Below, one piece after another: positions 1,315 through 25,827 of a stretch of DNA of 25,827 nucleotides. A model generated the notes under the pieces. The model did no database searches and had not been told where the DNA came from. It saw nothing but the letters and a program-made list of their open reading frames with translations. The position numbers and the translations under genes were made by a program. The stretch's first letter is position 1; every line of letters begins with the position of its first letter. The stretch is from a virus, in IMG/VR virus record IMGVR_UViG_3300043803_000919, positions 1-25,827 of that record; one strand, 5' to 3'.

Positions 1315-1315
1315 G

Positions 1316-1843
1316 TCACTTACCCTTCGGTCGATAGGAGTGCTTGGCGATGATCATCTCCCGTAGCTCTCCCGCCTTCTTGTTGGGATGGAGCTTGCGG
1401 TAGTGCCGCATGTCCTCGGCAATGATCTTCTCGGACAGCGGCGCCCGCTTGGGAGGAACAGGAATGCCCTTGTGGCTGACGATCCCCTCCACGGTCAGGT
1501 TGCGTTTCCGGGCCACGCGGACGATGTCGGCCGTTGAATCCACCCACGCCTCCGGGTCCTTGTGAGCCCGCTTGTCTGCAAGACCGCCCACGTACTGCTT
1601 GCCGGCCGTGCTGATCCCTGCCTCGCGGGCCTCGCGGAGCATGTGTTCCGCCATCAGCTTGGGCATGTCATCGAACTGCTGCTGGTTGTACCGGCCCTGG
1701 TTGAACGCCCGGTCCGTGCCCTTGGTGCCGGGAGGGCACTGGAGCGCACACATAGACGCCCACTTCTCGCCGTAGGGCAGGGCGGCCTTGTAGGTCCGCA
1801 CCGCCTCCGGACCGGCATCAAGCACCTGCTGGGGGATTGGCAT
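1316..1843 (-). CDS. Conserved hypothetical phage protein next to portal
   Basis: A 175-residue basic, mostly helical protein. Its start lies 26 nt inside the 3' end of the portal gene, and its stop is one base before the tail-fibre start, so the three are translationally linked. Visible features are an N-terminal Cys pair (CALQC, about 32-36), a central segment (YVGGLADKRAHKDPEAWVD) and a C-terminal half with LTVEGIVSHKGI and a Lys-rich tail. I recall similar short proteins in planctomycete-type phages but cannot name a domain. Position after the portal would suit a head-completion or adaptor role; that is inference only. Confidence 0.75.
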   Translation of the reverse strand: MPIPQQVLDAGPEAVRTYKAALPYGEKWASMCALQCPPGTKGTDRAFNQGRYNQQQFDDMPKLMAEHMLREAREAGISTAGKQYVGGLADKRAHKDPEAWVDSTADIVRVARKRNLTVEGIVSHKGIPVPPKRAPLSEKIIAEDMRHYRKLHPNKKAGELREMIIAKHSYRPKGK

Positions 1844-3800
1844 TCTGTTGCTCCTGCGGTGGAGGTGGAGGCGGAGGCGGCGGGACCATGTACCGTGCCA
1901 CGTCGATGTCCATGGATCGTCCCCAGTCTTCCAGGAGTGCGTTGAACAGCTGCGGCTGCCCAGCCTGGAGCATGCCCTGCGCCACGGGCATCATGACCTG
2001 GAGGGCCTGGTTCATTTGTTCGACCTTGGTCCCCTTGTTGGGCTTCCTGGCGCTTCCAGCCTCAACGCGGTAGTCGAACTCACGGACGATCTCGTCCGGG
2101 CTTGCCGCCAGGACGTGCATCTGCCACGCACCCGCAGCCATGGGACCAAGCAGCGGGGCGATGTCCTGCGGCTGCACCAGCCACCTGGCACAGAACGCCT
2201 CCTTGCGGGCCAGGAGGGACATGGCGTCTTCCAGCTGGTTCGCCATGTCGTCTGGCCGGACTGATATCTGCTCACTCTTCACGGCGGCTTCTGCGGCTGA
2301 CCTGAACTGATTTCTGGACATGCCGTAAATCAGCTCTGTCAGACCGACACGCCGGTCGAACAGGTTGGTGACCTCGGCCACAATTTGGAACAGCTCATTC
2401 GGCACACCGGGAAGATTGAAGACGCTGATCACGTCATTCACCGAACGGCCGATCGCTTCACTGATCTCTACGATCTTGAAGCCGGAATCATCGGAATCCA
2501 GGATCTTGGCTTTCAGGTCGTTGTCCGCGGCCTTGGCAACGCCGATGAGCGTCTGACTGGAGGTGGCGATCTTGGTGGCGATGAAGCTCATCGCATAATT
2601 GATGAAACGCAGCTCACCGATGCCTGGCTTAATGAGCGAGATGGGGTATGAATACCCCGGCTTGCCGTGCCACTGGAGGATGGTGCAGGGCCACCCGTCC
2701 GGCTCCACCCAGAACGGGATGGGCCACTGAGCCGCCTGGAACAGTCGCTGCGGCAGACCGCTCTCGTCCACCTCGTCCTGGATGATGTCCGGCGGCAGGT
2801 TCAGCGGATACGGCACGCCCTCGCAGACGACGATGTAGCAGAAGTCCCCCAGGGCGTCGAACTTGCCACGGAGCTTCTGGTCCGCATCCTTCAGGCGATC
2901 TCCGAACCCCGTCTTACTGTAGATTTCCCAGTACGTGACGAGGTCGTTGGTCTTGCCGTTCTTCTTCTTGTTTTCGTAGCCCACCTCACGGCGGCGGCTA
3001 CGTGAGTCATAGGACTCACTGTGGCCCTTCAGGTCTTCTTCCGGGACGCCGAACTTCTGGGCGACAAAGTCCCGTGAGTGCGTGCGTCGGCGGGCGATCC
3101 AGCGGATGTCCTGCTGGTCGTCTGCGTCCGGATCCCAGAGGACGGCGTCGAACGTCTCATAGAACGAACCGGCGACACGGGTTTCCGTTCCTGGGAACTG
3201 GAACAACTCCGTGAACCAACACCCGGCCCCCTTGATCAGCGCCTCATCCACCACCTTGCGGCTGTGGTCCTTGAGGTGGAGTTCGTTGGGCGTGTAGTTC
3301 AGGTACTCCTCCAGGAGCTTGGCGATGACGCCACGCTTCTCAGAGAGGAACTGGGTCTGCTGGACCAGCTGCTGGTACATCTGCATGCCCGGATCAGGCA
3401 TCATCACCGGCTGGCCGTCCGGGCCGATGACGGGCTGGCCGTCAGGCCCCATCTGCGGCACGGGAGGTTGGGGAAAGATCCCCAGCATCTGCGGACTCAC
3501 CATGGGGTACTGGCGAGCCGTGACGTTCCGCACCGGGTTGCGGTGATGGATGACCGCGCCGAAGAGGCGAACGGCCTCCCAGACCCGGTTGATGGTCATG
3601 CGGAAGGCCGGCGGTGCCAGGCCCTTCACAAACCCCTTGACGCCCCGCGTGTAGTCATTGCGGAACATCCAGGCGTTCTCGCCGTCATAGAACTGCATGG
3701 CCTCATCAGCGTCCTCCTGAAAAGGCCGTTTGTGTTCCTTGGCGAGTTCGATCTTTTCCAGCCAACCTTGGACGATTGGCCGGAGCGGGTGTTCTTGCAT
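1818..3800 (-). CDS. Portal protein
   Basis: A 660-residue protein downstream of the terminase, of a length usual for large portal proteins. Portals form the dodecameric ring at the head vertex through which DNA is packaged and ejected. The N-terminus (WLEKIELAKEHKRPF, then NRVWEAVRLFGAVIHHRNP), the acidic and aromatic central part with DPDADDQQDIRWIARR, and the RSAAEAAVKSEQISVR helix before a helical C-terminal region fit the portal/head-tail connector class. The last 20 residues contain nine consecutive prolines and a Gln/Asn-rich tail, likely disordered. The ATG at 3798-3800 has only a poor AGGG-type Shine-Dalgarno inside the palindrome CAGGGCCCTG. It lies 14 nt after the preceding stop. 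No catalytic motif is expected, so the call rests on size, composition and synteny. Confidence 0.75.
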   Translation of the reverse strand: MQEHPLRPIVQGWLEKIELAKEHKRPFQEDADEAMQFYDGENAWMFRNDYTRGVKGFVKGLAPPAFRMTINRVWEAVRLFGAVIHHRNPVRNVTARQYPMVSPQMLGIFPQPPVPQMGPDGQPVIGPDGQPVMMPDPGMQMYQQLVQQTQFLSEKRGVIAKLLEEYLNYTPNELHLKDHSRKVVDEALIKGAGCWFTELFQFPGTETRVAGSFYETFDAVLWDPDADDQQDIRWIARRRTHSRDFVAQKFGVPEEDLKGHSESYDSRSRRREVGYENKKKNGKTNDLVTYWEIYSKTGFGDRLKDADQKLRGKFDALGDFCYIVVCEGVPYPLNLPPDIIQDEVDESGLPQRLFQAAQWPIPFWVEPDGWPCTILQWHGKPGYSYPISLIKPGIGELRFINYAMSFIATKIATSSQTLIGVAKAADNDLKAKILDSDDSGFKIVEISEAIGRSVNDVISVFNLPGVPNELFQIVAEVTNLFDRRVGLTELIYGMSRNQFRSAAEAAVKSEQISVRPDDMANQLEDAMSLLARKEAFCARWLVQPQDIAPLLGPMAAGAWQMHVLAASPDEIVREFDYRVEAGSARKPNKGTKVEQMNQALQVMMPVAQGMLQAGQPQLFNALLEDWGRSMDIDVARYMVPPPPPPPPPQEQQNANPPAGA

Positions 3801-3814
3801 GGCAGGGCCCTGGG

Positions 3815-4144
3815 CTACTGCTTATTGCCCCGCAGCTTCTGCTCCAGCATCGCAACCCGCTCAGAAAGCTGGGCGACACGCGGATCCCGCGGGGCGTAGG
3901 TCCAAGTGCCAAACCGCCGCCACTCCGTGCTGTCGTCCAGGCGAGGGTCATCCCGGTGGCGGACGCTGGGCTTCTCCACCCCGCCGTACCCTGGAGACAG
4001 GGCCCAGAGGGTGAGCGTGTCCTGGCCCACCTTGATGACGAACGCCATCACCTGATCAGACCCCTCATGGGCCTGATACAGCACCGTGTCGCCCACGGAG
4101 GCGGCCGGCATCTTCCAGTTCACTTTTTCGTCGGTCCCAGGCAT
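3815..4144 (-). CDS. Small protein between large terminase and portal
   Basis: A 109-residue protein whose start overlaps the end of the terminase gene by 25 nt and whose stop is 14 nt before the portal start. The N-terminal two thirds (VNWKMPAASVGDTVLYQ, then VIKVGQDTLTLWALSPGYG) reads like a small beta-barrel. The last 20 residues (RVAQLSERVAMLEQKLRG) form a clear heptad coiled coil. A small beta domain with an oligomerising helix may act in head assembly or packaging, but no family is recognised. Reading frame, overlap and codon use comparable to neighbours support it as a real gene. Confidence 0.7.
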   Translation of the reverse strand: MPGTDEKVNWKMPAASVGDTVLYQAHEGSDQVMAFVIKVGQDTLTLWALSPGYGGVEKPSVRHRDDPRLDDSTEWRRFGTWTYAPRDPRVAQLSERVAMLEQKLRGNKQ

Positions 4145-5799
4145 ACGTATCCCTTTCCGTCATCGCCCTGACGTTTCAGACGCTCGGCTCGCCATTTGAC
4201 ATACCACGGCTCAGGGCCTGGCCGGGCTGGCGGTTGGTGGTACTGCGGCTCATAGGCACAGAGGTATTCCAGGCATTGGCAGCTGTGGACCTCGCCGCGT
4301 GTGTTGGGCATGTCCGTGACGAACGGACCGTTGTTGGACTGCACCACCTTCTTCTTGTACCGACGCAGCTCGCGGTACAGCTCTGGCACAGCGTTCTCCA
4401 GGAACTTCAGCTGAGTGCTGCCGTCACCGCGGATGTGCAGCATTTGCCGCACTAGGGCGGTTCTCGCCTGGATGTCGTCGGACCCGGGGACGAACTGGAA
4501 CCCAGACATTTGTGCCCGGATGTTTCGTTCCCGGAGTTGCTCCGAATACAGGTCGCATGGCAGCCTGCCTGAACCAAGGTCCCTCAGTGTACCTCCGTGC
4601 ATGTCCATGATGAAAGCGTAAAAGTGCTGCCCTTCGCACTTGGCTGCGAACGCCTCGCCCCAGATCAGGGCGTTGGCGTTCCGCAGGTACAGCTCGTCAT
4701 AGACCAGGATGAACCGCTCGTCCGGAGGCACTGCTGCGAACACGCAGGCCATGACGGTGTGTCCTGGGTCGATCGATACGTAGCGCGTCCAGTCAGGCGG
4801 AACGATGCCGTCAGGCAGCTCCGATCTGGGGAGGGTATGGACCATGGTGTTGAACGACGGGTACATGAGGATGGAGTCCTGGGTGAACTCGCCCTCTGCA
4901 CGCATCCGCAGCTCATCGACGCCCAGGGCTGACCACCGGGCGATGTTCTTTTCCTTTTCTTCTTTATCGATATGGTCGTTGTCCAAAAATCTCAGGACGA
5001 ACTTCTTGATCTGCGGGTTTTCCTTACCCTCCTCGGCCTCCTTGTCTGCCCGCTCGCACAGTCCCAGCAGGGCGTCGTTCTTGGAGTGCGGCATGGCACT
5101 CCACACCAGCCGGCCCTTACGGTCAGCCAAACGGGCCTGCATCTCACCCACCCAAGAGGGATTAGAAATATCCTCGTCCAGATGCACCAAATCGGCCTGA
5201 AAACCCTGGGGTGGCTCACCCTCAGAGGAAAAGAAGTTGACCGTCCATCCATTGGTCAGGACGACACGCTGGCAGTACCCGGCGTTCTTCAGCACCCATG
5301 ACACGTCTTCGACCAGTCTGGGTGGCACCAATGGTGGCGCTGGCTTCGTCTCGGCTCGGCGGGCGGCGTCCTGGCCAGGGCGGTACGCACGCCACTCGCC
5401 CGTCTCCAGGTCCTTGATGATCCGGAACGCACCGGCCTTGAAGAGCATGGGGTAGGCCACCAGGCCGATGTGCGGCCAGTTCCGGCCCACCACCACTAGG
5501 TTGCCGCCCTCCTTGGGGTACTTGTCGAACGGATCAGTACCCGTCAATGCACGGGCGTCCTCTACGAACGTGGAGAGCGATTTGCCGGATCTGTTCCCGC
5601 CAAGCACTATCCGCTCAGACGCCATGCTGGCGTGCATCTGCTGCTGAAGCGGCATGGGCTCATACAGCCTGAGCGCTTCGATCTTCCGACTCTTCAGCTC
5701 CGCCTGGACCTCTTTGAGGTGGCCAAGCGTGTGCTGGGTCACGCCGGGGACGACCGGCGGCTTAGGATGGTCCGGGACCTTCCGCGGGTGCGGCTTCAC
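4120..5799 (-). CDS. terL: Terminase large subunit (packaging ATPase/nuclease)
   Basis: A 559-residue DNA-packaging motor protein. The ATPase domain has Walker A GGNRSGKS (about 67-74) and Walker B LVHLDED (about 204-210, with the catalytic Glu after the Asp). The C-terminal nuclease domain starts at YVSIDPG (Asp about 344), with a second acidic strand FIMDMHG (Asp about 399), as expected for the RNase-H-like fold. I chose the GTG at 5797-5799 because a GGAGG (5806-5810) sits 6 nt upstream. A GTG six codons earlier is also open but lacks such a site. The start lies 38 nt inside the putative small terminase gene. The 3' end overlaps the 109-residue gene. The N-terminal LYEPMPLQQQMHAS resembles the adenine-binding region of large terminases. 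Confidence 0.9.
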   Translation of the reverse strand: MKPHPRKVPDHPKPPVVPGVTQHTLGHLKEVQAELKSRKIEALRLYEPMPLQQQMHASMASERIVLGGNRSGKSLSTFVEDARALTGTDPFDKYPKEGGNLVVVGRNWPHIGLVAYPMLFKAGAFRIIKDLETGEWRAYRPGQDAARRAETKPAPPLVPPRLVEDVSWVLKNAGYCQRVVLTNGWTVNFFSSEGEPPQGFQADLVHLDEDISNPSWVGEMQARLADRKGRLVWSAMPHSKNDALLGLCERADKEAEEGKENPQIKKFVLRFLDNDHIDKEEKEKNIARWSALGVDELRMRAEGEFTQDSILMYPSFNTMVHTLPRSELPDGIVPPDWTRYVSIDPGHTVMACVFAAVPPDERFILVYDELYLRNANALIWGEAFAAKCEGQHFYAFIMDMHGGTLRDLGSGRLPCDLYSEQLRERNIRAQMSGFQFVPGSDDIQARTALVRQMLHIRGDGSTQLKFLENAVPELYRELRRYKKKVVQSNNGPFVTDMPNTRGEVHSCQCLEYLCAYEPQYHQPPARPGPEPWYVKWRAERLKRQGDDGKGYVCLGPTKK

Positions 5800-6304
5800 T
5801 GAGGACCTCCACTGCACGGCTGACAGGCAGGGCCTTGAGCGTGATGGCCGTCTCCATCAGGCGCTGCCGCAGTTCCTCCTCCAGCTCGTCTTCGGTCCAC
5901 ACCGACAGAGGCTTCTTGGCACCGCCCATGGCTGTGTTGGCGTTCACCAGCCGCACCAGCGTCTCCAGCATCTTCGTCCGATGAGCCCCCCCAGGAGGCG
6001 AATCGTAGTACTGTTTCATGAACACATTGCCGAAACCACGCACGCCGCCGAAGTACTCCAGAAGGACTTCGATCAGCTCGGCACTGTGGGGGATCGTTGA
6101 CCCGCCCAGCCTGGCCGCCTTGCAGAACACGTCCACCGCGTCCTGCTCTATGGCGTCCAGCCGCGAGTCCTTCTTCTTCTTGCGGCGTTTTCGTTCGTAG
6201 GACGACCGGCACGTCTTGCATTTGGGGTGCATCCTGCCATCGGCTGACCGATGGAAACTGGTCTCTGGCAGCTCCTGCTTACATTCGATGCAGGTCTTCT
6301 TCAT
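5762..6304 (-). CDS. Zinc-ribbon protein, candidate terminase small subunit
   Basis: A 180-residue protein directly upstream of, and overlapping, the large terminase; that is the usual place for the DNA-recognising small terminase subunit. The N-terminus has two CxxC pairs (C5/C8 and C29/C32), a treble-clef or zinc-ribbon arrangement. It is followed by a very basic run (ERKRRKKKKD, about 37-46) suited to nucleic-acid binding, then a helical middle and an acidic, Ala/Pro-rich C-terminus. The start ATG overlaps the preceding stop as ATGA (6301-6304). The phage small-terminase role is inferred from position and DNA-binding character. It could instead be a zinc-finger HNH-less endonuclease-type accessory or a regulator. 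Confidence 0.6.
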   Translation of the reverse strand: MKKTCIECKQELPETSFHRSADGRMHPKCKTCRSSYERKRRKKKKDSRLDAIEQDAVDVFCKAARLGGSTIPHSAELIEVLLEYFGGVRGFGNVFMKQYYDSPPGGAHRTKMLETLVRLVNANTAMGGAKKPLSVWTEDELEEELRQRLMETAITLKALPVSRAVEVLSEAAPAEGPGPS

Positions 6305-7683
6305 AGCTTGCAGTGCCAGACGTTCCCGTTAACCACTGGCACCAAGCCGCAATCAGCCACCGCCCGCTTCACGCCATCGAATGCGTGGTAGTCATGGCCC
6401 GCCAGGATGTGCTTGGCCTTGGGCTTCCAGGCCAGGATGTCCTGCTTCACCGATTCGTAGTCATGCTCGGCATCGATGTAGACGATGTCGAACTGGCCGT
6501 CCCGGAACTTGGCTGCGGCGTCAGGCGACTTGGCCTTGACGGCGGAGATGTTCATACCGGCGGTGTTGCGCTGGAACACCTCAAACGGCGCCCCGGCCTG
6601 GCCGTCATACTGCTTGCAACCATCGTCGTTGGAGTTGCCGCCCCACGTATCCACGCAGGTCACATGTGCCGCCCCGGACTGGGCCATGATGATCGCACTG
6701 CGGCCAGCCCATGAGCCGACTTCCAGCACCACCGGCTTGCGGCGATGCTCGTCGCGGAACTTCTGCACCAGTGCAGCCAGGGCCTCGGCATCCGACTGCG
6801 GCAGGTCCATGCCCATGTCGTTGAAGCTCTTGGGCAGCCAGGTTGGTTCCGGGAGATCCACCAGCTTGGTGACGCAGCCGGCCTCCACCGCACCGCGGAG
6901 TTTCTCCGACACATGGGCGGCGGTTATGATTACAGGCTTGCCAACGCACTTGGGCTTCCAGTGACCAGCCCAGGCGTCCCAGTTGCAGAACACCGGGTTG
7001 TAGCCCAGCTTCTGGACGCCGACGAGCGACAGGTCCCGCGTCATCGTCACGTCTTCGGTGCTGGCCTTCTCTGCGGCGTAGCGGTCCTTCCACTCGTAGT
7101 AGAACCACGGCTTGTCCGCCTCGGACCGCGGCTCGGTCACGTCAAAGGCCCGCATGTCGTACATGATCAGGCCGGTGGGTAGTGCAGCGCACTCCTGGAT
7201 GCCGGTCATGTTGTGGCCGGTGTTCCGGTCATACATCTCCAGCTGGTAGTCCGGATTGGCGTGTTCCGACTGCATGTTCTGCCAGCGGAACACGTACACG
7301 CACTCCGCCGGAGGAGGGCCGCAGTAGGGGGCCCCAATCACACACGGCCCCTTGAAGTAGTGATTCACCAGGAAGTCGAAGCTGCTGTGGAAGAACGGCT
7401 TCGCCCCTGGCTGGCCGGCGTTGATGTCCGGCTTCATGTCGGAGTCCACCATCACCAGCACATCCAGCCCGTAGTCCCTGGCCATGAGGACGGCCCGGTT
7501 GCGGGTCATGGTGATGGGCGTGTCAGACAGGTTCCAGATGCGGACCTGTTCGATCCTGTCGGACTTGGACAGGTCTGCGACCAGCGGCACCATCCACTCT
7601 CGGATGTCAGGCACCTCAGAAGAGATGCCGCCGTTGCCGCCGTAGGAGAACGTACAGAATCCGACGCTGAACTTCTGGTGCAT
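6301..7683 (-). CDS. Glycosyltransferase - SAM methyltransferase fusion protein
   Basis: A 460-residue two-domain enzyme. Residues 1 to about 250 look like a GT-A glycosyltransferase: a hydrophobic strand leads to D80-S-D82 (VMVDSDMKPD), followed by ALPTGLIMYDMRAFD (168-182), an acidic STED (208-211) and a His in AGHWKP (239-244), the order expected for metal-, acceptor- and catalytic-site elements. Residues about 300-460 are a class I SAM-dependent methyltransferase: motif I VLEVGSWAG (319-327), then VTCVDTWGG, VYIDAEHDYESVKQDI (401-416) and LAGHDY (427-432), matching the Methyltransf_24 type. It could glycosylate and methylate a sugar or protein; substrate unknown. The ATG has GGAG 7 nt upstream, inside a hairpin. 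It overlaps the zinc-ribbon gene by 4 nt. Confidence 0.8.
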   Translation of the reverse strand: MHQKFSVGFCTFSYGGNGGISSEVPDIREWMVPLVADLSKSDRIEQVRIWNLSDTPITMTRNRAVLMARDYGLDVLVMVDSDMKPDINAGQPGAKPFFHSSFDFLVNHYFKGPCVIGAPYCGPPPAECVYVFRWQNMQSEHANPDYQLEMYDRNTGHNMTGIQECAALPTGLIMYDMRAFDVTEPRSEADKPWFYYEWKDRYAAEKASTEDVTMTRDLSLVGVQKLGYNPVFCNWDAWAGHWKPKCVGKPVIITAAHVSEKLRGAVEAGCVTKLVDLPEPTWLPKSFNDMGMDLPQSDAEALAALVQKFRDEHRRKPVVLEVGSWAGRSAIIMAQSGAAHVTCVDTWGGNSNDDGCKQYDGQAGAPFEVFQRNTAGMNISAVKAKSPDAAAKFRDGQFDIVYIDAEHDYESVKQDILAWKPKAKHILAGHDYHAFDGVKRAVADCGLVPVVNGNVWHCKL

Positions 7684-11963: not shown

Positions 11964-13076
11964 TCAGGCGTAGTTCTTGAACTTGATGAACGACCTGGGC
12001 GACTTGAACTTCATGTTGCCCAGCGTGGAGACACAGTAGCGATACGATTGGGTGACCTCGTCGTAGAACGGCCCCTCGCTGTTATACATCTGCGACTCCA
12101 TGTTCAGGAGTTCGATGTTGCCGATGGCGAGGCCGTATCCGGTGTCCGCCGGGACCGCGTACTCCGTGCCCACTTCCACGCCGTCGATTTCGACGGTGTT
12201 GAAGCCGAACGACCGCAGGCCGTTCTCGCGGGAGACGATGACGCGCTCCTTGGAGTCCTGCTTGTTGAGGAAGTCGATGTAGAGCTTCCGGTCCAGGACC
12301 ACCAGATCGATGGCGTCTTCCTTGGTGTCGTTCCGCTTGGCGTAATGCAAGCCGGCCCGGATCGCCTTCACACAGTTCTCCGCCCAGGTGGCAGAGCTGC
12401 CGCCCCAGAACGTGGACGTGTAGTTCACCAGGATGGGCGAGTAGAAATCGTACTCGCTGTCCGCCTTGCCGCCCGGCCACGTGCCGGTCAGCTGCGAGCC
12501 GCCGTAGTAACCCAGCTGGGTGTTGAGCCCGGCGTAGGTATCCGACGGGTAGGCAAACGGGTCCGCAGCATTGGCCGAACGCTGGGTGCCATCGGTCACG
12601 TGGAGCGTGCCGTTGTTGCCGAAGAACGACTCCAGGCCGTGATACCGAAGCTCGTTGCCGCTGGCATTGCCGTCATTCCAGACCTCCTGCGAGAGGTACT
12701 GTTCGATGGAGGTGAGGAGACGGCTGGCCATCTTGCCGGCCACGTTGACCAGGGCGCTGGTGCCTCGGTTCTCCAGAAGCTCCTTGCGGTAGATCATGTC
12801 CGTGGCCTGATAGCCCCGGTACTCAAGCTCCGCTTTCTTCCACAAATTCTGGCGGCTGAAGGAGCGAGGAGTCTCGCCGTTGTTGCCCTGCGGCTGATGC
12901 AGCCTATAGGACACCTCCCAGTCGAAACCCCTTCCGGCCATGTTCATCCGGATGTTGCCGCGACTTTCGATGGCAGCGAACACCATGTACTTGCGGAGGG
13001 AGGCAATCTCCTCCTCACGCAGGTGGTTGACGATCGTCGTTGCAATCGACCGGGCGAAATCAGTGGACGAAGGCAT
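11964..13076 (-). CDS. Major capsid protein
   Basis: A 370-residue protein between the scaffold and the decoration-like gene. It has a helical N-terminal arm (MPSSTDFARSIATTIVNHLR), a central region rich in aromatic and Gly residues, and a C-terminal segment (DLVVLDRKLYIDFLNKQDSK, RSFGFNTVEIDGVEV, RYCVSTLGNMKFKSPRSF) in the order seen in phage HK97-fold capsid proteins: adjacent-subunit contact helix, then P-domain strands ending near the C-terminus. No protease cleavage or crosslinking residues can be assigned. GGGAG lies 10 nt before the ATG. The strong downstream terminator and position after the scaffold support this as the abundant head subunit. Confidence 0.78.
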   Translation of the reverse strand: MPSSTDFARSIATTIVNHLREEEIASLRKYMVFAAIESRGNIRMNMAGRGFDWEVSYRLHQPQGNNGETPRSFSRQNLWKKAELEYRGYQATDMIYRKELLENRGTSALVNVAGKMASRLLTSIEQYLSQEVWNDGNASGNELRYHGLESFFGNNGTLHVTDGTQRSANAADPFAYPSDTYAGLNTQLGYYGGSQLTGTWPGGKADSEYDFYSPILVNYTSTFWGGSSATWAENCVKAIRAGLHYAKRNDTKEDAIDLVVLDRKLYIDFLNKQDSKERVIVSRENGLRSFGFNTVEIDGVEVGTEYAVPADTGYGLAIGNIELLNMESQMYNSEGPFYDEVTQSYRYCVSTLGNMKFKSPRSFIKFKNYA

Positions 13077-15127: not shown

Positions 15128-15591
15128 CAGCCCACCTGCCTGGCAGTGCCAGTGAGATCAATCAGCAACGGACTCATGGGAGAGGAGAGTTCCTGAGCCT
15201 GGCGGGCCATGCGGACTCGCTCCAGCATGGACTGAGCCCGGATCTGTTCGATGTCCTTCTCATGCTCCATGCGACGAATCTCCCGGAGCTGGGAGACGCG
15301 GGACTTCATCTCGTCACCGATGGCGTCGTTTACGTCGTCCGCGGCCTTGGCCAGGACGCCTGCCTGAACGTCAGGTGTAATGACAGGGACAGGAAGACCG
15401 ACCTGCGGAATGTTGAACGCGGCGCGGGGTCTCGCCTGCTGGTTGGCCTGGTTGTTGGCTGGGCGACGTTGCTGACCCACGGGAGCCAAGGGATTGGCCG
15501 GGATCTCGTCCCGCTTTTCCTTGGGCTGATCGCCAAACTGCTCGGCAAAGCCTCTGCGGATCGACTCCTCCAGAATCGCATTCAGGTCCAT
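15127..15591 (-). CDS. Hypothetical protein with C-terminal helical region
   Basis: A 154-residue protein. Residues 1-25 form an acidic amphipathic helix (LNAILEESIRRGFAEQFG). Residues 30-75 are Pro/Gln/Asn-rich and probably disordered. Residues 78-140 form a long helix or coiled coil (VLAKAADDVNDAIGDEMKSR, REIRRMEHEKDIEQIRAQSM). It overlaps the 135-residue gene by one base (TAATG) and the 312-residue gene by one base. The architecture would suit a minor structural or scaffold-accessory protein. No named family. Confidence 0.65.
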   Translation of the reverse strand: MDLNAILEESIRRGFAEQFGDQPKEKRDEIPANPLAPVGQQRRPANNQANQQARPRAAFNIPQVGLPVPVITPDVQAGVLAKAADDVNDAIGDEMKSRVSQLREIRRMEHEKDIEQIRAQSMLERVRMARQAQELSSPMSPLLIDLTGTARQVG

Positions 15592-15998
15592 TAGGTCTTC
15601 CTCTTGGCCTTCCAGCAGGCCATGCGTACCAGGGCACGTCCGGCAGTGCGGATGAACGGCAGGCCACGCTTCTTGGCCGTCTCCTCCATCACGTCCACTA
15701 TCTCTTCAATGTGCTTCACGGCCTCGTCTGGACCCCATTCGTCCATCTGGCGGGCCATCTTGTTGCACTTGCAGGTAGGGGAGGCGTGGATCCCCATGGT
15801 GGACAACATGGCCTTCAGCTCTGTGCCTGGCCCGGGGTGGGGTGCGTACTTGGCCCGTATCCTCTGGAAGTGATGCTCCGGCATCTCCAAGTGGGTGTCG
15901 GAGACCTTGGTGGCAAAACGCAAGACCTCTTCCGTGTACCCGGGCTTACGGGAGGTGGCGGCCTGTTCCAGCTTGGCTATGGATATGAGGTGCTTCAT
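15591..15998 (-). CDS. Small conserved protein with CKCN motif
   Basis: A 135-residue protein. The start at 15996-15998 overlaps the stop of the Cys-rich gene (ATGA); the open frame extends 13 codons further upstream but only over that gene. Core features are GPGTELKAMLSTMGI (about 57-71), PTCKCNKMARQMDEWG (about 74-89) and a C-terminal RGLPFIRTAGRALVRMACWK. The closely spaced Cys pair suggests a metal site or disulfide. I remember this arrangement in small proteins of planctomycete genomes, sometimes near glycosyltransferases, but I cannot name a domain or function. The window also encodes two glycosyltransferases, so a link is possible but unproven. Confidence 0.65.
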   Translation of the reverse strand: MKHLISIAKLEQAATSRKPGYTEEVLRFATKVSDTHLEMPEHHFQRIRAKYAPHPGPGTELKAMLSTMGIHASPTCKCNKMARQMDEWGPDEAVKHIEEIVDVMEETAKKRGLPFIRTAGRALVRMACWKAKRKT

Positions 15999-16669
15999 GG
16001 CGGATCGTCTGCTGATTCGCAACAGGCACCAGGGCACAGGAACGGATTCAAAGCTCTACCGCTGCCAACGCAACAGTAGTAATCCGAAGTGCCTTCCGGA
16101 GAGCCAGCGTAGGCTCGCCCAGGGGGGCATACGTTTGCGCCGCCTGGCTCAAAAGGGAACAGTTCGACACCACCGGGGTCCTGGCACAGGTCATTTACGC
16201 AACAGCGACAGGGTCCGCAGTCTGCGTCTGTCGCGCATGACTCTGGACACTCGCCGCACACGCCATCGTTACAGCACTGACCCTCTGGGCAGTCCTCGTC
16301 GGACTCGCACTCGCACGGCACGCACTCCTCGTCTACGCAGCATTCGCCCTCTGGGCAGCACACACCGGCACAGCAGGTCTCGCCAGGGTCGCAGCAGACT
16401 GCCCCAACATCACCTGGACAACAGGTCTGATCGTTGTTGCAGCACACGCCCTGGCCGTCGTTGCAGCAGTACTGGGCCTCGGTGCAGCAGACCTCTGACT
16501 CACCAACCCCTATTTCATAGACAGTGCAGCACTCCCTGGGATTCTCACAGCAGACCTGGGACTCTCCTGTGCCGCAGCACACGTCCGGGTCCTTGCAGCA
16601 CACCTTGTTGCCGTCAGGGCCGCAGCACTCGCCATCCAGCTTGACGCAGCAGCAGGTGCAGCAGGGCAT
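15995..16669 (-). CDS. Extremely cysteine-rich (CC-repeat) protein
   Basis: A 224-residue protein with 51 cysteines (about 23%), most as Cys-Cys doublets. From residue 15 to about 113 the doublets come at short, regular intervals, most often 5 or 7 residues apart with D, G, P, E and N between them, recalling granulin-type disulfide ladders. Residues about 115-160 change to single-Cys spacing (CESDEDCPEGQCCNDGVC) like small EB or antistasin-like modules. The last 60 residues are Gly/Pro-rich with fewer Cys. It is acidic, with no signal peptide. GGAG lies 6 nt before the ATG; start and stop both overlap neighbours. Lying in the structural operon, it may be a disulfide- or metal-rich particle protein; no function is established. 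Confidence 0.8.
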   Translation of the reverse strand: MPCCTCCCVKLDGECCGPDGNKVCCKDPDVCCGTGESQVCCENPRECCTVYEIGVGESEVCCTEAQYCCNDGQGVCCNNDQTCCPGDVGAVCCDPGETCCAGVCCPEGECCVDEECVPCECESDEDCPEGQCCNDGVCGECPESCATDADCGPCRCCVNDLCQDPGGVELFPFEPGGANVCPPGRAYAGSPEGTSDYYCCVGSGRALNPFLCPGACCESADDPP

Positions 16670-16938
16670 TACCAGCTCCAGTTGCAGGACCAGTAGCCGG
16701 CCGTGAGCTTGTCGGTCTTCTCGTCACAGTTGTGACGGGCTTTGAAGTTGGCCCTGCGGCCTTCATCTCCATGACCGCCACCGGAGCCGTCCCGGTAATG
16801 GCCCATGGAGGCATCGCCAAACCGGACGATCCGCTCCTCGTCGCCCACCTTGGCGCGGACGACGAACTTCTTGCCACCCTGCGTGTCACGCACGGGACGG
16901 TTGGGGATCAGCCGGCGGATGTTGTCTTCACTTGCCAC
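16669..16938 (-). CDS. Conserved small phage protein with RARHNCD...YWSC-type motif
   Basis: An 89-residue protein. Core KKFVVRAKVGDEERIVRFGD (about 24-43) reads as a beta hairpin, and FKARHNCDEKTDKLTAGYWS with a final Trp-rich end (about 67-89) carries the ARHNCD and YWSC pair I recall from a small family in large phages, often near capsid genes. The two Cys and His residues could bind a metal. The start is a GTG at 16936-16938 inside the end of the 50-residue gene (11-nt overlap); the frame continues upstream but only as a shadow of that gene. Function unknown. Confidence 0.72.
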   Translation of the reverse strand: MASEDNIRRLIPNRPVRDTQGGKKFVVRAKVGDEERIVRFGDASMGHYRDGSGGGHGDEGRRANFKARHNCDEKTDKLTAGYWSCNWSW

Positions 16939-17080
16939 TGAGCTTGTTCCACTGCTTCTGGTCCGGATAGCCCTTGTCACCCGGCTTGGCCGGAGCTTCA
17001 CCACGCTCACGCTTGGCGTGGATGTTGGCCCACAGACCAGGCCGCAGCTTGCGGATCTTGTCTCCGTTTGGGTCACTCAT
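16928..17080 (-). CDS. Small basic phage protein with LWANIHAKR motif
   Basis: A 50-residue protein reading KLRPGLWANIHAKRERGE (about 11-28), then a Gly/Pro/Lys-rich tail (PAKPGDKGYPDQKQWNK). The LWANIHAKR element followed by KPGxKGxP is widespread in phage genomes and also appears in DUF5872-type proteins; role unknown, possibly nucleic-acid or capsid associated because it is so basic. The ATG at 17078-17080 lies 8 nt inside the 333-residue gene, with AGGTG upstream. It overlaps the ARHNCD gene by 11 nt, so the pair is translationally linked. Confidence 0.72.
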   Translation of the reverse strand: MSDPNGDKIRKLRPGLWANIHAKRERGEAPAKPGDKGYPDQKQWNKLSGK

Positions 17081-22215: not shown

Positions 22216-22547
22216 TGAGTCACACACCAGGACCGTGGCACTACCACTACGCCACTGCGGTTGGCGAGGAAAGCGAGGACGGCGACTACAACGCAGCATT
22301 CGGAATCACCAGCCGCAGCAAGGAAGAGTTCCAGGCAGACGGCAACCGCGGTGATCTGGTGGCCTATGTGCCATGGGACTGTGATCACATTGCCAATGCC
22401 CGCCTCATCGCCGCTGCGCCGGAGATGCTGGCTGCCCTACGGGAACTTGTCCACTATGACGAAGGCAGTAGTGAGCAGGGGTCTTACGGATACGAAGTTC
22501 TGAGTCGATGCAAGTCAGTCATTGCCAAAGCAGAAGGGAGGGAGTGA
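22215..22547 (+). CDS. TPGPW-family small phage protein, copy 1
   Basis: A 110-residue protein beginning HTPGPWHYH and containing ANARLIAAAPEMLAALREL (about 61-79). The start HTPGPW plus xARLIAAAPxxLxAL is a very common small phage signature seen in Ea22-like and other accessory proteins; role unknown. A middle region is acidic (EESEDGDYN). It overlaps the previous stop by one base. The C-terminus AEGRE is encoded by the purine-rich ribosome-binding site for the next gene. It is a diverged paralogue of the gene at 22774-23085. Confidence 0.75.
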   Translation: MSHTPGPWHYHYATAVGEESEDGDYNAAFGITSRSKEEFQADGNRGDLVAYVPWDCDHIANARLIAAAPEMLAALRELVHYDEGSSEQGSYGYEVLSRCKSVIAKAEGRE

Positions 22548-22774
22548 TGGGCATTACCAATCCGTCTGCCGCGTGCGAATTGCACAGTGCGTTGGCTGAC
22601 ATGCTGGAGGAGTATGAATACGACACCGAATGGCATGAGCGGTCCGGGATGAACGCCCGGTCACAACGCGACATCATTCTGCGGGCGAAGCAGGCTATCG
22701 CTCACTTCACTGGAGAGCCAGTGGCGCCGTGCTACTGGGAGGCCGGGGACTACGAAGAACCGGAGGATGCGTGA
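22547..22774 (+). CDS. 75-residue hypothetical protein
   Basis: A short acidic protein with a helix ACELHSALADMLEEYEYDTE and a second ARSQRDIILRAKQAIAHFTG, then an acidic end YWEAGDYEEPEDA. The ATG overlaps the previous stop (TGATG) and has GGGAGGGAG directly upstream. The two helices around a turn could be a small helical bundle. It sits between the two TPGPW paralogues. No family recognised. Confidence 0.65.
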   Translation: MGITNPSAACELHSALADMLEEYEYDTEWHERSGMNARSQRDIILRAKQAIAHFTGEPVAPCYWEAGDYEEPEDA

Positions 22775-23085
22775 TGGCACATACACCTGGACCGTGGGAG
22801 GTCCACCATTGGGGTGACAACGAGGGCGACATTCACGGCAGCGACGGCAAGGTGGTGTGCGTGATGCGTGACGGTGCCACGCCACAAGAGGAGGACTGGG
22901 AGGGCGATGCCCGCCTCATTGCAGCGGCACCGGACCTGCTGCACTGCGTTCTGCTGCTTGACTACGCCTGCCATCACGGTGATCGCAAGTGCCTGGAGGC
23001 TGCGGTGGCGAAGGCTAAGACACTCATAGCCGAGGCCGGGCAGAAGACTGCCGAAGAGGAAGAGGACGAAGAGGAGGACGAGTGA
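22774..23085 (+). CDS. TPGPW-family small phage protein, copy 2
   Basis: A 103-residue protein starting HTPGPWEVHHWG with DARLIAAAPDLLHCVLLLDY (about 45-64), so it is a paralogue of copy 1 with a more hydrophobic helix. It ends in a run of acidic residues (EEEEDEEEDE), encoded by the GAGGAGGAC ribosome-binding sequence of the next gene. It overlaps neighbours by one base on both sides (TGATG). Function unknown; two copies 230 nt apart point to a local duplication followed by divergence. Confidence 0.75.
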   Translation: MAHTPGPWEVHHWGDNEGDIHGSDGKVVCVMRDGATPQEEDWEGDARLIAAAPDLLHCVLLLDYACHHGDRKCLEAAVAKAKTLIAEAGQKTAEEEEDEEEDE

Positions 23086-23333
23086 TGCCGAACGCAATGC
23101 CCTACCACTACATCCAACTGTCGATCGTCATGCGTGACTGCGTTGACCCGGTCGATGCCGTGCGTCAACTGGGTCGCCTGATGCCCCACAACCCGGACGA
23201 AACGACCAAACACATGGAGTCATGGACTGTGGAGCGGATCAGCGGCACGGACTGCGTGGAATATGACCGCACCACCCACTCACGGGAACTGGAACTGGAA
23301 CAGGTAGTGCAACATGCAGAAGGGAGGGAGTGA
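23085..23333 (+). CDS. 82-residue hypothetical protein
   Basis: A short protein (YHYIQLSIVMRDCVDPVDAV, then WTVERISGTDCVEYDRTTHS) with a strand, a helix and two strands ahead of an acidic helical end QVVQHAEGRE. The ATG overlaps the previous stop. Its last 20 bases including the next start are identical to those of copy 1 of the TPGPW family. Function unknown. Confidence 0.65.
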   Translation: MPNAMPYHYIQLSIVMRDCVDPVDAVRQLGRLMPHNPDETTKHMESWTVERISGTDCVEYDRTTHSRELELEQVVQHAEGRE

Positions 23334-23686
23334 TGAGCCTTGACTGGACTACAAACCGCTGCGATCCGCCTCTGCCCAAGGACGATGAGGACAGGCATGC
23401 CAGGGACATGCTGGTGTGGTCGGCCCTCGCCGTAGACCTGGGGGAGATCACCAAGAAGAACGTGGACGAGTGGGTATGGCGGATGTTCTACCAGCGGAAG
23501 ACAACCGAGGCGATCTACATCCCGGACAAGACGACGCCGGCCGAGGTGCGGCGGATGGTGGAGCGGTGGGTGGGGCTGGGCACAAACGTCCTGACCCTGA
23601 GCCGCAAGCAGTGGCTGAAGAAGGTGACCGAGATCATGGCGAATCGCAACACAAGGGAGGTGGCAGATGCGGTACATCATGCATGA
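23333..23686 (+). CDS. 117-residue hypothetical protein
   Basis: A mainly helical protein: DRHARDMLVWSALAVDLGEI, NVDEWVWRMFYQRKTTEAIY, then PAEVRRMVERWVGLGTNVLT and a Lys-rich SRKQWLKKVTEIMANR. Conserved-looking Trp residues and basic helices might bind a protein or nucleic acid. It overlaps the previous stop (TGATG) and the next gene by 20 nt. No family recognised. Confidence 0.65.
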   Translation: MSLDWTTNRCDPPLPKDDEDRHARDMLVWSALAVDLGEITKKNVDEWVWRMFYQRKTTEAIYIPDKTTPAEVRRMVERWVGLGTNVLTLSRKQWLKKVTEIMANRNTREVADAVHHA

Positions 23687-23936
23687 TGAGGGCTATGACC
23701 TGCGGGCAATGCTGCCGGACTGCCGGGGCAAGACCAAGCTGGAAGTGCGGCTGCTCTCCGGTGAGTTGTCCGCCCTGTTCAGCCTGCCAGAGTCGGTTGC
23801 GGTGCGGGCGTTGGTGCGGGCGTGCGATGTCCAGTTCACCGACTTCGGTGCGGTCATCGATGACGATGCCGTGGCACTGCGGCCTGCCGTGAGATTCCGG
23901 AAGGAGATTGTCAGACGCACTACCTCCAACGTATGA
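23667..23936 (+). CDS. 89-residue hypothetical protein, last gene before terminator
   Basis: A protein with alternating strands (KTKLEVRLLSGELSALFSLP, ALVRACDVQFTDFGAVIDDD) and a basic end (RFRKEIVRRTTSNV). The ATG 23667-23669 has GGGAGG 6 nt upstream and overlaps the previous gene by 20 nt. The stop lies 35 bases before a strong terminator, so it closes the first rightward transcription unit. Function unknown. Confidence 0.65.
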   Translation: MRYIMHDEGYDLRAMLPDCRGKTKLEVRLLSGELSALFSLPESVAVRALVRACDVQFTDFGAVIDDDAVALRPAVRFRKEIVRRTTSNV

Positions 23937-23971
23937 TTCCGATACGTGGGAGGTTCGCCTCTCCGTGGTGG

Positions 23972-24016
23972 CCCCTGCCGGGGAAAAATAGCGTAAGTAC
24001 CCGGCAGGGGTTTTTT
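23972..24016 (+). terminator. Strong intrinsic terminator closing the first rightward unit
   Basis: CCCCTGCCGGG (23972-23982) and CCCGGCAGGGG (24000-24010) form a perfect 11-bp stem with a 17-nt loop, followed by TTTTTTC. It follows the 89-residue gene and separates it from the next rightward block. Confidence 0.9.
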
Positions 24017-24018
24017 CT

Positions 24019-24052
24019 TGTACACTCCCGCACCTGTACGGAGGTACACATG
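24019..24052 (+). promoter_or_regulatory. Leader with two mutually exclusive hairpins at a ribosome-binding site
   Basis: TGTACACTCC (24019-24028) can pair with GGAGGTACA (24040-24048) with one bulge, hiding the GGAGG of the gene at 24050. Alternatively TGTAC (24035-24039) pairs with GTACA (24044-24048), leaving GGAG in a 4-nt loop. The pairings are seen directly; a translational switch is inferred. Confidence 0.4.
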
Positions 24053-24415
24053 CCCTGTGAATGGGGGCATCACGTGTGGATTGACCGGCCGTCATCCATG
24101 CGCCCCGGTTGGATTGCCACCTACTGCCGTGAGTGCAGGAAGTTTTTGGGACGACGGCCGGAGGACATGGGCTGGGCCATGCCGAAGCAACGCGGACCCG
24201 GAGGGACTTGGGCAGATGAAGACCATAGTTCACGTCAACCAGCACAAGATCAGAAGCAACCAGAAGACAGGCGAAAGGCTGCCCGTTCTCACGGTGAAGA
24301 CCTACTGCTCCAACCAGTACGCACACCGGGTGAAGATCGACGGCCCTTGCGTGGTGGTGTACAGCCCGGACAGGCCTTTGTCCTGCGGGGCCAGGGTGTG
24401 GATCGAAACCGATAG
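24050..24415 (+). CDS. Small zinc-knuckle-like protein with overprinted C-terminus
   Basis: Starts at ATG 24050-24052 with a perfect GGAGG 5 nt upstream. Residues 1-45 (CEWGHHVWIDRPSSM, then YCRECRKFLGRRPEDMGW) hold C3, H7, H8 and CRECRKF, a likely zinc knuckle of a type common in phage and planctomycete small proteins. The frame then continues to 121 residues, but the last 200 nt lie out of frame inside the well-conserved 72-residue gene. The tail is rich in Gln, Arg and Pro, as expected of an overprinted or spurious extension. Either the protein truly carries this tail, or a base error hides an earlier stop. Confidence 0.5.
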   Translation: MPCEWGHHVWIDRPSSMRPGWIATYCRECRKFLGRRPEDMGWAMPKQRGPGGTWADEDHSSRQPAQDQKQPEDRRKAARSHGEDLLLQPVRTPGEDRRPLRGGVQPGQAFVLRGQGVDRNR

Positions 24416-24434
24416 CACTGTGGAGGTGGAGTGA
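24216..24434 (+). CDS. Conserved small phage protein (VNQHKIRSN type)
   Basis: A 72-residue beta-rich protein: MKTIVHVNQHKIRSNQKTG, LTVKTYCSNQYAHRVKIDGP, then VVVYSPDRPLSCGARVWIET. I recognise this as a widespread small family in phages (NQHxIRxNxKxG...VVYxPDxPLSCGARVWIET), function unknown. Two Cys (in YCSN and SCGA) are noted. The ATG has GGAGGG about 10 nt upstream. It overlaps the zinc-knuckle gene by 200 nt in another frame and the next gene by one base. Confidence 0.78.
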   Translation: MKTIVHVNQHKIRSNQKTGERLPVLTVKTYCSNQYAHRVKIDGPCVVVYSPDRPLSCGARVWIETDSTVEVE

Positions 24435-24646
24435 TGCCACTCTCGGATGATCTTTTAGAAGTGTTTGACGCCTATGAAACGGCCCGGCAACGGCTGACCG
24501 AAATTGCACCATGCCCCAAGTGCTGCCCTCCACGCCCGCCCGCTGTCCCTGGGGAGTACATCGTCGGTGGTGACATCCGGCTTTGCAGCAAGTGCGGTGG
24601 TGAAGGTTTCTTCATCGACTGGTCAGCCGAGGAGGAGGACGAGTGA
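24434..24646 (+). CDS. Small CxxC zinc-binding protein
   Basis: A 70-residue protein with helix EVFDAYETARQRLTEI, then CPKCC (about 28-32), a Pro-rich loop and CSKCGGEGFF (about 52-61). Two CxxC knuckles, the second CxxCxGxG-like, are what DnaJ-type zinc domains look like, so it probably folds around one zinc ion. It ends EEEDE, which encodes the ribosome-binding site of the next gene. One-base overlap with both neighbours. Function unknown. Confidence 0.72.
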   Translation: MPLSDDLLEVFDAYETARQRLTEIAPCPKCCPPRPPAVPGEYIVGGDIRLCSKCGGEGFFIDWSAEEEDE

Positions 24647-24885
24647 TGCGAGCGTTCCCAACTGACGAGTACATGGACGAGCAACGGGTAGGCCAGAACC
24701 CGGGCATGGACCTGCGTGATTGGTTTGCCGGGCAGATTGCGGCGTCCATTGCTCTGTCCCAATGGCAGACAACTGAATCCAGTTACTACACCAACGACAT
24801 GATCGCTCAGGAAGCGTATCTCCTGGCCGATGCGATGGTCCGATGGCGGCGCAAGTCAAGGAGCAAGGCCAATGCCAACGATTGA
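24646..24885 (+). CDS. Conserved small phage protein (MDLRDWFAGQ type)
   Basis: A 79-residue protein with GMDLRDWFAGQIAASIALSQ (about 19-38) and a helix MIAQEAYLLADAMVRWRRKS. The LRDWFAGQ plus AYxLADAMLxxR pair is widespread in phage accessory regions; function unknown. The start ATG overlaps the previous stop (TGATG), with GAGGAGGAC upstream. It overlaps the next gene by 14 nt. Confidence 0.75.
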   Translation: MRAFPTDEYMDEQRVGQNPGMDLRDWFAGQIAASIALSQWQTTESSYYTNDMIAQEAYLLADAMVRWRRKSRSKANAND

Positions 24886-25063
24886 ACTGACCGACGAGCA
24901 GGCCGAGGAGTTGCGGGCTGTGATTGGCTATGAGTGCGACCGGCTGGATGAAGACATCAAGTTCGCTGAGAGGCTGGGCGGTGCCGACGATCCCAGCGCC
25001 ATTCAGTATCGCCATGAGAAGTCTGTCATGTCCGACATCCTTAACCTACTGGAGATTGCGTGA
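24872..25063 (+). CDS. Small helical phage protein
   Basis: A 63-residue protein, PTIELTDEQAEELRAVIGYE, then LDEDIKFAERLGGADDPSAI and a final helix KSVMSDILNLLEIA. ELTxEQAxxL helices followed by an acidic loop and a terminal helix are seen in many unnamed small phage proteins. AAGGAG lies 9 nt before the ATG. It overlaps the next gene by one base. Function unknown. Confidence 0.68.
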   Translation: MPTIELTDEQAEELRAVIGYECDRLDEDIKFAERLGGADDPSAIQYRHEKSVMSDILNLLEIA

Positions 25064-25293
25064 TGCCTAAGAAACTAGCAGAGGCTGAGTGCTACATGGG
25101 ACCGGGCGAGTACACCTACCGCATCGAAGAGGTGTACGACAAGCGCATCGGTCAGATGATCTACGAACTCTACAGCACACTGCGGGCATCCGGGGTGTCG
25201 TCGCTGCTGGGTGAGTACAACACCAGGGAAGACGCACGGAATGGCATGCTGCGTTACCGTGAAAGGGACGTTGCCAAAGGGAGGGACCAGTGA
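25063..25293 (+). CDS. 76-residue hypothetical protein
   Basis: A small protein with GPGEYTYRIEEVYDKRIGQM (about 14-33), a strand-rich YELYSTLRASGVSSLLGEYN and a helix REDARNGMLRYRERDVAKGR. The start overlaps the previous stop (TGATG). The sequence after it, GGGAGGGACCA, is the ribosome-binding site of the next gene. Function unknown; no family recognised. Confidence 0.62.
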   Translation: MPKKLAEAECYMGPGEYTYRIEEVYDKRIGQMIYELYSTLRASGVSSLLGEYNTREDARNGMLRYRERDVAKGRDQ

Positions 25294-25607
25294 ACCGCAC
25301 ATTCATAGTCAACACCAATCCCATTGCTCCCATTGCATGCTGGGAGATCAGTCCGTGTGCCAAAACGCCGGACACGGAAGGAGGGTACGCGGTCGAAGCG
25401 TTTGAGACCATGGCCGAAGCCCGGTCTGCCGTGGACAGGCTGGGTGGCACCACTTTCTGGGGCGTGTACGCACGGCTAAGTGATGACGCTATCGCGGCTG
25501 CATTGGGCCCACCCGTGATACAGGTGTATCACCTGAAGGACTTCGATAGTTACGATGAGGCTGTTCGGCTTGTCCAGTTATTCAACGGAGTGAACGATGA
25601 CGACTGA
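25290..25607 (+). CDS. 105-residue hypothetical protein, GTG start
   Basis: Begins at GTG 25290-25292, overlapping the previous stop (GTGA), with GGGAGGGACCA upstream. Strands and helices alternate: TFIVNTNPIAPIACWEISPC, then GGYAVEAFETMAEARSAVDR, WGVYARLSDDAIAAALG and VIQVYHLKDFDSYDEAVRLV. It could be a small alpha/beta fold. No catalytic motif is seen. It overlaps the next gene by 11 nt. Confidence 0.65.
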   Translation: MNRTFIVNTNPIAPIACWEISPCAKTPDTEGGYAVEAFETMAEARSAVDRLGGTTFWGVYARLSDDAIAAALGPPVIQVYHLKDFDSYDEAVRLVQLFNGVNDDD

Positions 25608-25827
25608 AACCAAGGTGATGGGGTTTGGCCTGTGCGATTCGTCTGCGGTGCAGGCCGTGAGTAAGAGGCGTATCGGATCGCTGCCCTACGGCGTAGCCAC
25701 GGGGTGCTGCGATATCGGTGAGGCCAAACTGAAGGATGGCAGGCGTGTGCTGATCACGTGGGGCCGGAACATCACACCGGATGAGCAGTTCTGGTTTGCC
25801 CATAACAGCATCCACTCCTGCGTCTGG
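25597..25827 (+). CDS. Hypothetical protein (partial, cut by right edge)
   Basis: Starts at ATG 25597-25599 with GGAG 7 nt upstream, and runs off the window after 77 codons. It begins TTETKVMGFGLCDSSAVQAV and goes on to SLPYGVATGCCDIGEAKLKD, then VLITWGRNITPDEQFWFAHN and SCVW. A Cys pair and several Trp residues are visible. Too little is present to name a family. Confidence 0.55.
   Translation, partial: MTTETKVMGFGLCDSSAVQAVSKRRIGSLPYGVATGCCDIGEAKLKDGRRVLITWGRNITPDEQFWFAHNSIHSCVW

Follow-up and report, generated by a model that had tools for sequence, protein, structure and literature searches.

Results

Genome and gene neighbourhood

The window, by which we mean the whole stretch of 25,827 nucleotides analysed here (IMG/VR record IMGVR_UViG_3300043803_000919), matches the 59,605-bp contig G001 at 36,941–59,605 over its positions 1–22665 and picks up again at the first position of G001, so that window 22312–25827 is 100% identical to G001 1–3516. 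The ends of G001 carry a 354-bp repeat (98%). The genome is about 59.25 kb long and either circularly permuted or terminally redundant. The features of the window used below are the following.

1818–3800, minus strand: portal protein (phrog_156, 2.3e-11)
4120–5817, minus strand: terminase large subunit (phrog_2, 1.1e-8)
11964–13076, minus strand: major head protein (phrog_9953, 1.1e-9)
15591–15998, minus strand: downstream partner gene, 135 aa, with a GTELK...CxCN domain; its start overlaps the stop of the Cys-rich gene
15995–16669, minus strand: ATG-started Cys-rich gene (protein P0001), 224 aa, 51 Cys
15998–16246, minus strand: exchangeable C-terminal Cys-rich tip of P0001 (aa 142–224, tip family T1), supported by tip identities
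16019–16291, minus strand: 273-bp stretch with 86% DNA identity to a 32%-GC phage (L006/L007)
16247–16339, minus strand: Cys-rich hinge (aa 111–141, CxxDxDC..CCxDGxCGEC), the left limit of tip exchange
16340–16669, minus strand: N-terminal CC ladder, the conserved shaft (aa 1–110), supported by identity to relatives and by the hairpins of the AF2 model
16669–17076, minus strand: upstream ORF whose C-terminal part matches phrog_7595 (DUF5754-like; 3.6e-15, the DUF5754 match itself lying below the cut-off)

The head, terminase and portal genes lie downstream of the Cys-rich gene on the same strand, in agreement with the preliminary description, which had placed the gene inside a structural operon. 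The translational coupling to both neighbours proposed there is also borne out: the start junction reads TAATG, where the upstream stop overlaps the Cys-rich gene start, and the end junction reads ATGA, where the stop of the gene overlaps the next start. The gene sits upstream of the head genes and away from the S74 tail fibre of the phage (G001 33593–35422). Neither the major head protein nor the portal has a relative in INPHARED, and we therefore assign the phage to an uncultured lineage. Between the structural genes and the terminase there is a methyltransferase-like gene (window 6301–7683, minus strand; 460 aa, 12 Cys) whose C-terminal third gives the DNA-methyltransferase match (phrog_2675, 1.4e-20) and which is well conserved in the relatives L003–L005.

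In L003 the place of the phrog_7595 ORF, directly before the Cys-rich gene, is taken by an ADP-ribosyltransferase-like gene, whose ART-PolyVal match (L003 3561–4475, 1.2e-5) is below the cut-off. Genes of this type near the Cys-rich gene (L003 3561–4475, G007 49111–49941 and 106576–107403) all start with 'YHGSP.DFDRFD'.

The downstream partner has no family match and no relative in INPHARED. It accompanies the Cys-rich gene in L031 and L042 despite a different shaft and gene order. In G007 (52307–53299, minus strand) a single uninterrupted ORF (225 aa from MTCCKCC) covers the ladder, the tip and the GTELK/CxCN partner domain, a natural fusion of what are two genes in the window. Since the partner is co-retained, and fused in G007, a physical or functional link between it and the Cys-rich protein is likely. 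The G007 contig itself (117.8 kb) consists of two related phage genomes of about 58 kb in tandem, with two sets of head, portal and terminase genes and a Cys-rich gene at the same place in each half; a 3.35-kb repeat (99.3% identity) marks the join of the halves, and the contig is either a chimeric assembly or a real concatemer.

The Cys-rich gene and its relatives

The count of 51 Cys in 224 residues (22.8%) and the coordinates given in the preliminary description are correct, the gene being on the minus strand. The mean Cys content of the 21 minus-strand ORFs of at least 300 aa in the complete relative contig G001 is 0.8%, most of the long ORFs having few Cys or none, so that 23% is exceptional in this genome. 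P0001 (23.0 kDa, pI about 4.05) contains no His and no Trp. Its N-terminus (MPCCTCCCVKLDG...) is not signal-peptide-like, as had been stated before, and no stretch of 18 residues exceeds a Kyte-Doolittle mean of 1.15. The protein has 20 CC doublets, whereas shuffled sequences with its composition have 11.4 ± 2.6. Within the ladder the gaps between successive doublets are 7, 5, 7, 5, 12, 5, 6, 5, 7, 5, 3 and 4 residues; the regular spacing of 5 or 7 noticed in the preliminary description thus accounts for 8 of the 12 gaps (P about 1e-5 under random placement).

A search for CC-ladder homologues, which had been suggested as a check, found L002–L005 and L030/L031 in IMG/VR, and it is these relatives that reveal the two-part architecture of the protein. 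L002 (100%) and L003 (87%) are related over the full length, L004 and L005 carry the same ladder with another tip, and L030/L031 have a distant ladder (about 43%); L006/L007 share the tip only. The ladder of the window is 98% identical to that of L005, 82–85% to those of L004 and L003 and about 43% to that of L031. L003 and L004 each retain all 38 Cys of aa 1–138, the non-Cys positions being 76–78% identical. Relative to L003, the NG86 values of dN/dS are 0.10/0.47 for the ladder (about 0.21) and 0.07/0.72 for the tip (about 0.09). P0001 is thus a real gene under purifying selection (dN/dS about 0.1–0.2). The antisense ORF at 15895–16644 (plus strand) was discarded, since the low dN/dS and the Cys conservation favour the minus frame.

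Ladder length is variable: 13 CC doublets in the window (from aa 15 on), 10 in L031 and 6 in the first Cys-rich gene of G007, the latter two being counted over the corresponding N-terminal part. The structure prediction that had also been suggested yielded a row of hairpins with CC on each strand at aa 58–118; the overall confidence was low. The AF2 model was built from 7 sequences only and has a mean pLDDT of 57.6, with a block of about 70–82 over aa 71–140 and values below 50 at the N-terminus and in the distal tip. The ladder is accordingly predicted, with moderate confidence, to consist of stacked beta-hairpins, most confidently from about aa 61 on. Foldseek searches of the ladder model against PDB and BFVD gave no significant fold match; short local matches of the Cys-rich tip to squash trypsin inhibitors were not significant.

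Family searches

P0001 has no match in Pfam (E<=1), NCBIfam (E<=0.1), PHROGs, the INPHARED phages or the PDB sequences (E<=10), which upholds, within these libraries, the earlier remark that no characterised phage protein of this type was known. The granulin model PF00396 (Pfam, E<=1) and the metallothionein family models (Pfam, E<=1; NCBIfam, E<=0.1) are among those that did not match. One scan of genome contigs for a cellular origin of the ladder returned only CxxDxDC-repeat proteins of Myxococcota/Deltaproteobacteria and no CC ladder, and this origin was discarded. Several IMG/VR matches to the hinge pattern lay in different frames or in other proteins and were due to chance. One open frame of a viral contig with 31% GC (L046, at 10427, minus strand) has 317 residues and 40 Cys and includes a CDPPCDPxxCxxC hinge motif in a different setting. 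The contigs of the ladder phages yielded no thioredoxin; the search for a sulfhydryl oxidase (Evr1_Alr) carries no weight, since none of its controls gave a match.

Exchange of the tip

Among the ladder phages the tip is replaced as a unit. The window and L005 have ladders that are 98% identical and tips only 31% alike over 62 aa, and in L003 and L004 the ladders are 94% identical and the tips unrelated; the T1 tip is missing from L004. The T1 tip of the window is 93% identical to that of L003, 86% to that of L006b and about 39% to that of L034c. At the DNA level, sharing between the window and L004 ends at 16248 (aa 141) and restarts just beyond the stop codon, while sharing with L005 ends at 16277 (aa 131) and restarts at aa 221. 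Because DNA sharing stops and restarts at these points, the exchanged unit is the tip, bounded by the hinge and by the start of the next gene. P0001 thus combines a conserved proximal part with a replaced distal domain, as expected of a modular receptor-binding protein or fibre tip.

We considered whether a diversity-generating retroelement might have P0001 as its variable protein. The search for a reverse transcriptase (PF00078) gave nothing in 15 contigs, which include the complete G001 of about 59 kb and others that are possibly incomplete, while the control genomes were positive, and this explanation was discarded. With no reverse transcriptase in these contigs, the simplest mechanism for the swaps would be homologous recombination at the hinge.

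Tips shared between unrelated phages

The tips also cross between unrelated phages. Those of the window and L006b are 86% identical on unrelated shafts, and in L006b GC3 is 0.54 in the tip and 0.14 in the shaft, which marks the tip as a recent arrival from a high-GC donor. A chimeric assembly as the origin of the L006 tip is unlikely, as the locus is present in two assemblies (possibly from related samples) with 4 differences in 20.3 kb; the existence of divergent low-GC members of the T1 family (L034c) is a further point against it. A second tip family leads to a different carrier: the tip of L004 (T2) is 88% identical to the C-terminal end of a 767-aa protein with 109 Cys encoded by L042 (4117–6420), a phage with 64% GC that belongs to the same broad group. 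The N-terminal part of this protein has only weak, Cys-driven similarity. In L042 the tip-bearing gene comes after the portal and tail-type genes, in another gene order.

Within the low-GC phages the same independence of tip and shaft is seen. Shafts 94–97% identical (96–97% in L006c/L034c/L036c, L006a/L034a and L037a/L038a) bear tips without detectable similarity, one tip family is found on shafts merely 33% alike, and family T3 sits on paralogue a in one phage and on paralogue b in others.

Tail-fibre setting in the low-GC phages

The low-GC phages encode three Cys-tipped proteins in tandem, immediately after large tail-fibre genes (phrog_2631, 1.6e-28; phrog_4492, 4e-32, with fn3 and F5/8C domains). 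The tip-sharing proteins of these phages thus lie in tail-fibre clusters, whereas the window gene lies in the structural operon upstream of the head genes. The shaft that the low-GC proteins have in common (alignment A4, 14 sequences) gave no credible match in Pfam, and the low-GC protein has no match in INPHARED; the predicted fold of the shaft matches DUF4376 (23 viral-library matches at E<=1e-3). Tail-fibre-assembly proteins have DUF4376 as their conserved domain and are encoded beside receptor-binding fibres (PMC7882524, PMC10579305, PMC10877375), and the tail-fibre-assembly protein of phage Mu remains attached to the fibre (PMC7882524). In L092 (5995–7038), a relative of this DUF4376-type shaft (30% identity), also in a tail-fibre cluster, has an fn3 domain where the others have the Cys tip, so that swapping of small binding domains at this position is a general habit of these proteins.

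The low-GC shaft has no sequence relation to the CC ladder, and P0001 itself has no DUF4376 match in Pfam or PHROGs, the fold being confined to the low-GC shaft. The fibre context is therefore evidence via the shared tip and not via a shared shaft. A counterpart of the CCxxGxC anchor of the hinge is present in the low-GC phage proteins.

Two function-unknown families occur in the low-GC phages, DUF1501 (8.5e-111; G010 165514–166788) and DUF1552 (3.4e-93; L092 863–2143). These genes may be a host hint or auxiliary genes. A Planctomycetes/Verrucomicrobia host, which the two families had suggested, was dropped because DUF1501 is also present in the Caulobacter and Deinobacterium controls and was not found in the ladder phages.

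Discussion

The data are best explained, in our opinion, if P0001 is a virion-associated adhesin of two modules, a disulfide-stabilised rod that presents an exchangeable host-binding tip; we put the probability of this reading at roughly 0.55. The disulfide-bonded ladder of short beta-hairpins (aa 1–110) would form a stiff rod, and the Cys-rich hinge (aa 111–141) would couple it to a small disulfide-stabilised tip (aa 142–224), which would touch the host surface and bind the receptor. Host contacts would be altered by recombination that replaces the entire tip, from the conserved hinge up to the equally conserved beginning of the following gene, and this recombination would reach unrelated phages of very different GC content. 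The host-gripping role is suggested by the fact that viruses usually treat the parts with which they grip the host as exchangeable. The reading draws on the discordance of shaft and tip, the breakpoints at the hinge and at the next gene, the imported tip of L006b, the tail-fibre setting and shaft fold of the low-GC proteins, the fn3 substitution in L092, the retained Cys, the predicted hairpins and the place of the gene among structural genes. Disulfides, a location on the virion and receptor binding are inferred from these observations. Counted against the adhesin are the position of the window gene apart from the S74 tail fibre, the low overall confidence of the AF2 model with its lack of a significant fold match, the unrelated sequences of ladder and low-GC shaft, and the need to explain about 25 disulfides in a cytoplasmic protein; they presumably form after lysis or on the particle. 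The preliminary description had offered three roles, and the hardened virion component is the one that we favour, with the ladder as the scaffold for a swappable tip.

In both the window and G007 only a few genes separate the Cys-rich gene from the scaffold-like and major head genes downstream of it, and it does not adjoin the recognised tail fibre of the phage. This position would also suit a capsid decoration, i.e. a disulfide rod on the head through whose swappable, surface-binding tip the virion adheres to mucus, polysaccharide or particles, with no role in receptor binding by the tail. We regard this as unlikely, because the tip-bearing gene of L042 follows the portal and tail-type genes and the low-GC sharers of the tip belong to tail-fibre clusters and have a fibre-assembly-type fold.

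It is still less probable that the protein is an effector freed at lysis that acts on neighbouring cells, by adhesion block or in a protease-inhibitor-like or toxin-like manner, with the swapping of tips providing target specificity. Release by lysis needs no signal peptide, the tips diversify through exchange, and the small Cys-rich tips are knottin-like (the non-significant squash trypsin inhibitor matches). Nevertheless, the gene is translationally coupled within the structural operon, the long conserved ladder and hinge suggest a particle-borne spacer, and relatives bear the tip at the C-terminus of fibre-cluster proteins, where fn3 can substitute for it. A metal-binding or redox protein (metallothionein-like) inside the infected cell, another of the roles proposed earlier, is very improbable in spite of the 23% Cys with CC and CxC motifs and the lack of a signal peptide, as there is no family match and no His, the regular 5/7 spacing fits hairpins, and the C-terminal half is exchanged with tail-fibre-cluster proteins of unrelated phages.

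The modular adhesin that we prefer may be compared with several known systems. Adhesins of the T2/S16 gp38 type, like P0001, combine a constant part with a hypervariable receptor-contacting part, the distal part setting specificity, and their gene adjoins the fibre gene, as in the low-GC relatives described here (PMC12892980). In contrast, gp38 is a beta-helix with a polyglycine sandwich bearing loops (PMC12892980), while in P0001 a whole Cys-rich module is carried on a CC ladder, and no sequence or fold relation between the two was found in PHROGs, PDB and BFVD. The likeness to Tfa (DUF4376) proteins consists in the low-GC shaft fold and in the position directly after the tail-fibre gene (PMC7882524, PMC10579305, PMC10877375). 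Unlike Tfa, the low-GC proteins add a C-terminal Cys-rich domain (fn3 in L092), and P0001 has the CC ladder where they have the DUF4376 shaft. The Alteromonas phages A5 and V22 are likewise unrelated phages with common host-recognition genes (PMC10579305), but here the genomes, of 62% and 32% GC, exchange a single C-terminal domain of about 80–125 aa in frame.

Outside the phages, granulins are stacks of four beta-hairpins (PMC7463432), and the model predicted for P0001, in which successive hairpins carry CC doublets, resembles this arrangement. The ladder is longer (13 CC pairs, aa 15–111) than the 12-Cys granulin module, it belongs to a bacteriophage and it lacks a signal peptide; without a Pfam or PDB match, P0001 does not qualify as a granulin. 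In the CxxDxDCxxGxxCxxGxC repeat proteins of Myxococcota one repeat resembles the hinge motif of P0001 (CESDEDCPEGQCCNDGVC), but these proteins are long and secreted and have single-Cys repeats, with no CC ladder and no swappable tip. No gripping part of such a build is described in the libraries and papers searched, which covered few subscription journals. P0001 would be a variant of the modular phage adhesin whose building principle is absent from these sources.

A broader proposal, to which we would give slightly less than even chances, is that small disulfide-rich binding cassettes form a pool open to unrelated phages, which join them in frame by recombination, as interchangeable host-binding tips, to very different carriers (the CC ladder, the DUF4376 fibre-tip proteins and the 109-Cys giant), and that in the CC ladder phages have a rod of a new kind.

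If the adhesin reading is true, phages make host-binding parts from disulfide-rich modules that are otherwise typical of secreted proteins, and the tips pass between genomes of 62% and 32% GC. Such tips would provide a sequence handle linking uncultured phages with common hosts, as well as a source from which small, stable binding domains could be mined, and they would raise the question of how about 25 disulfides arise in a protein that has no signal peptide.
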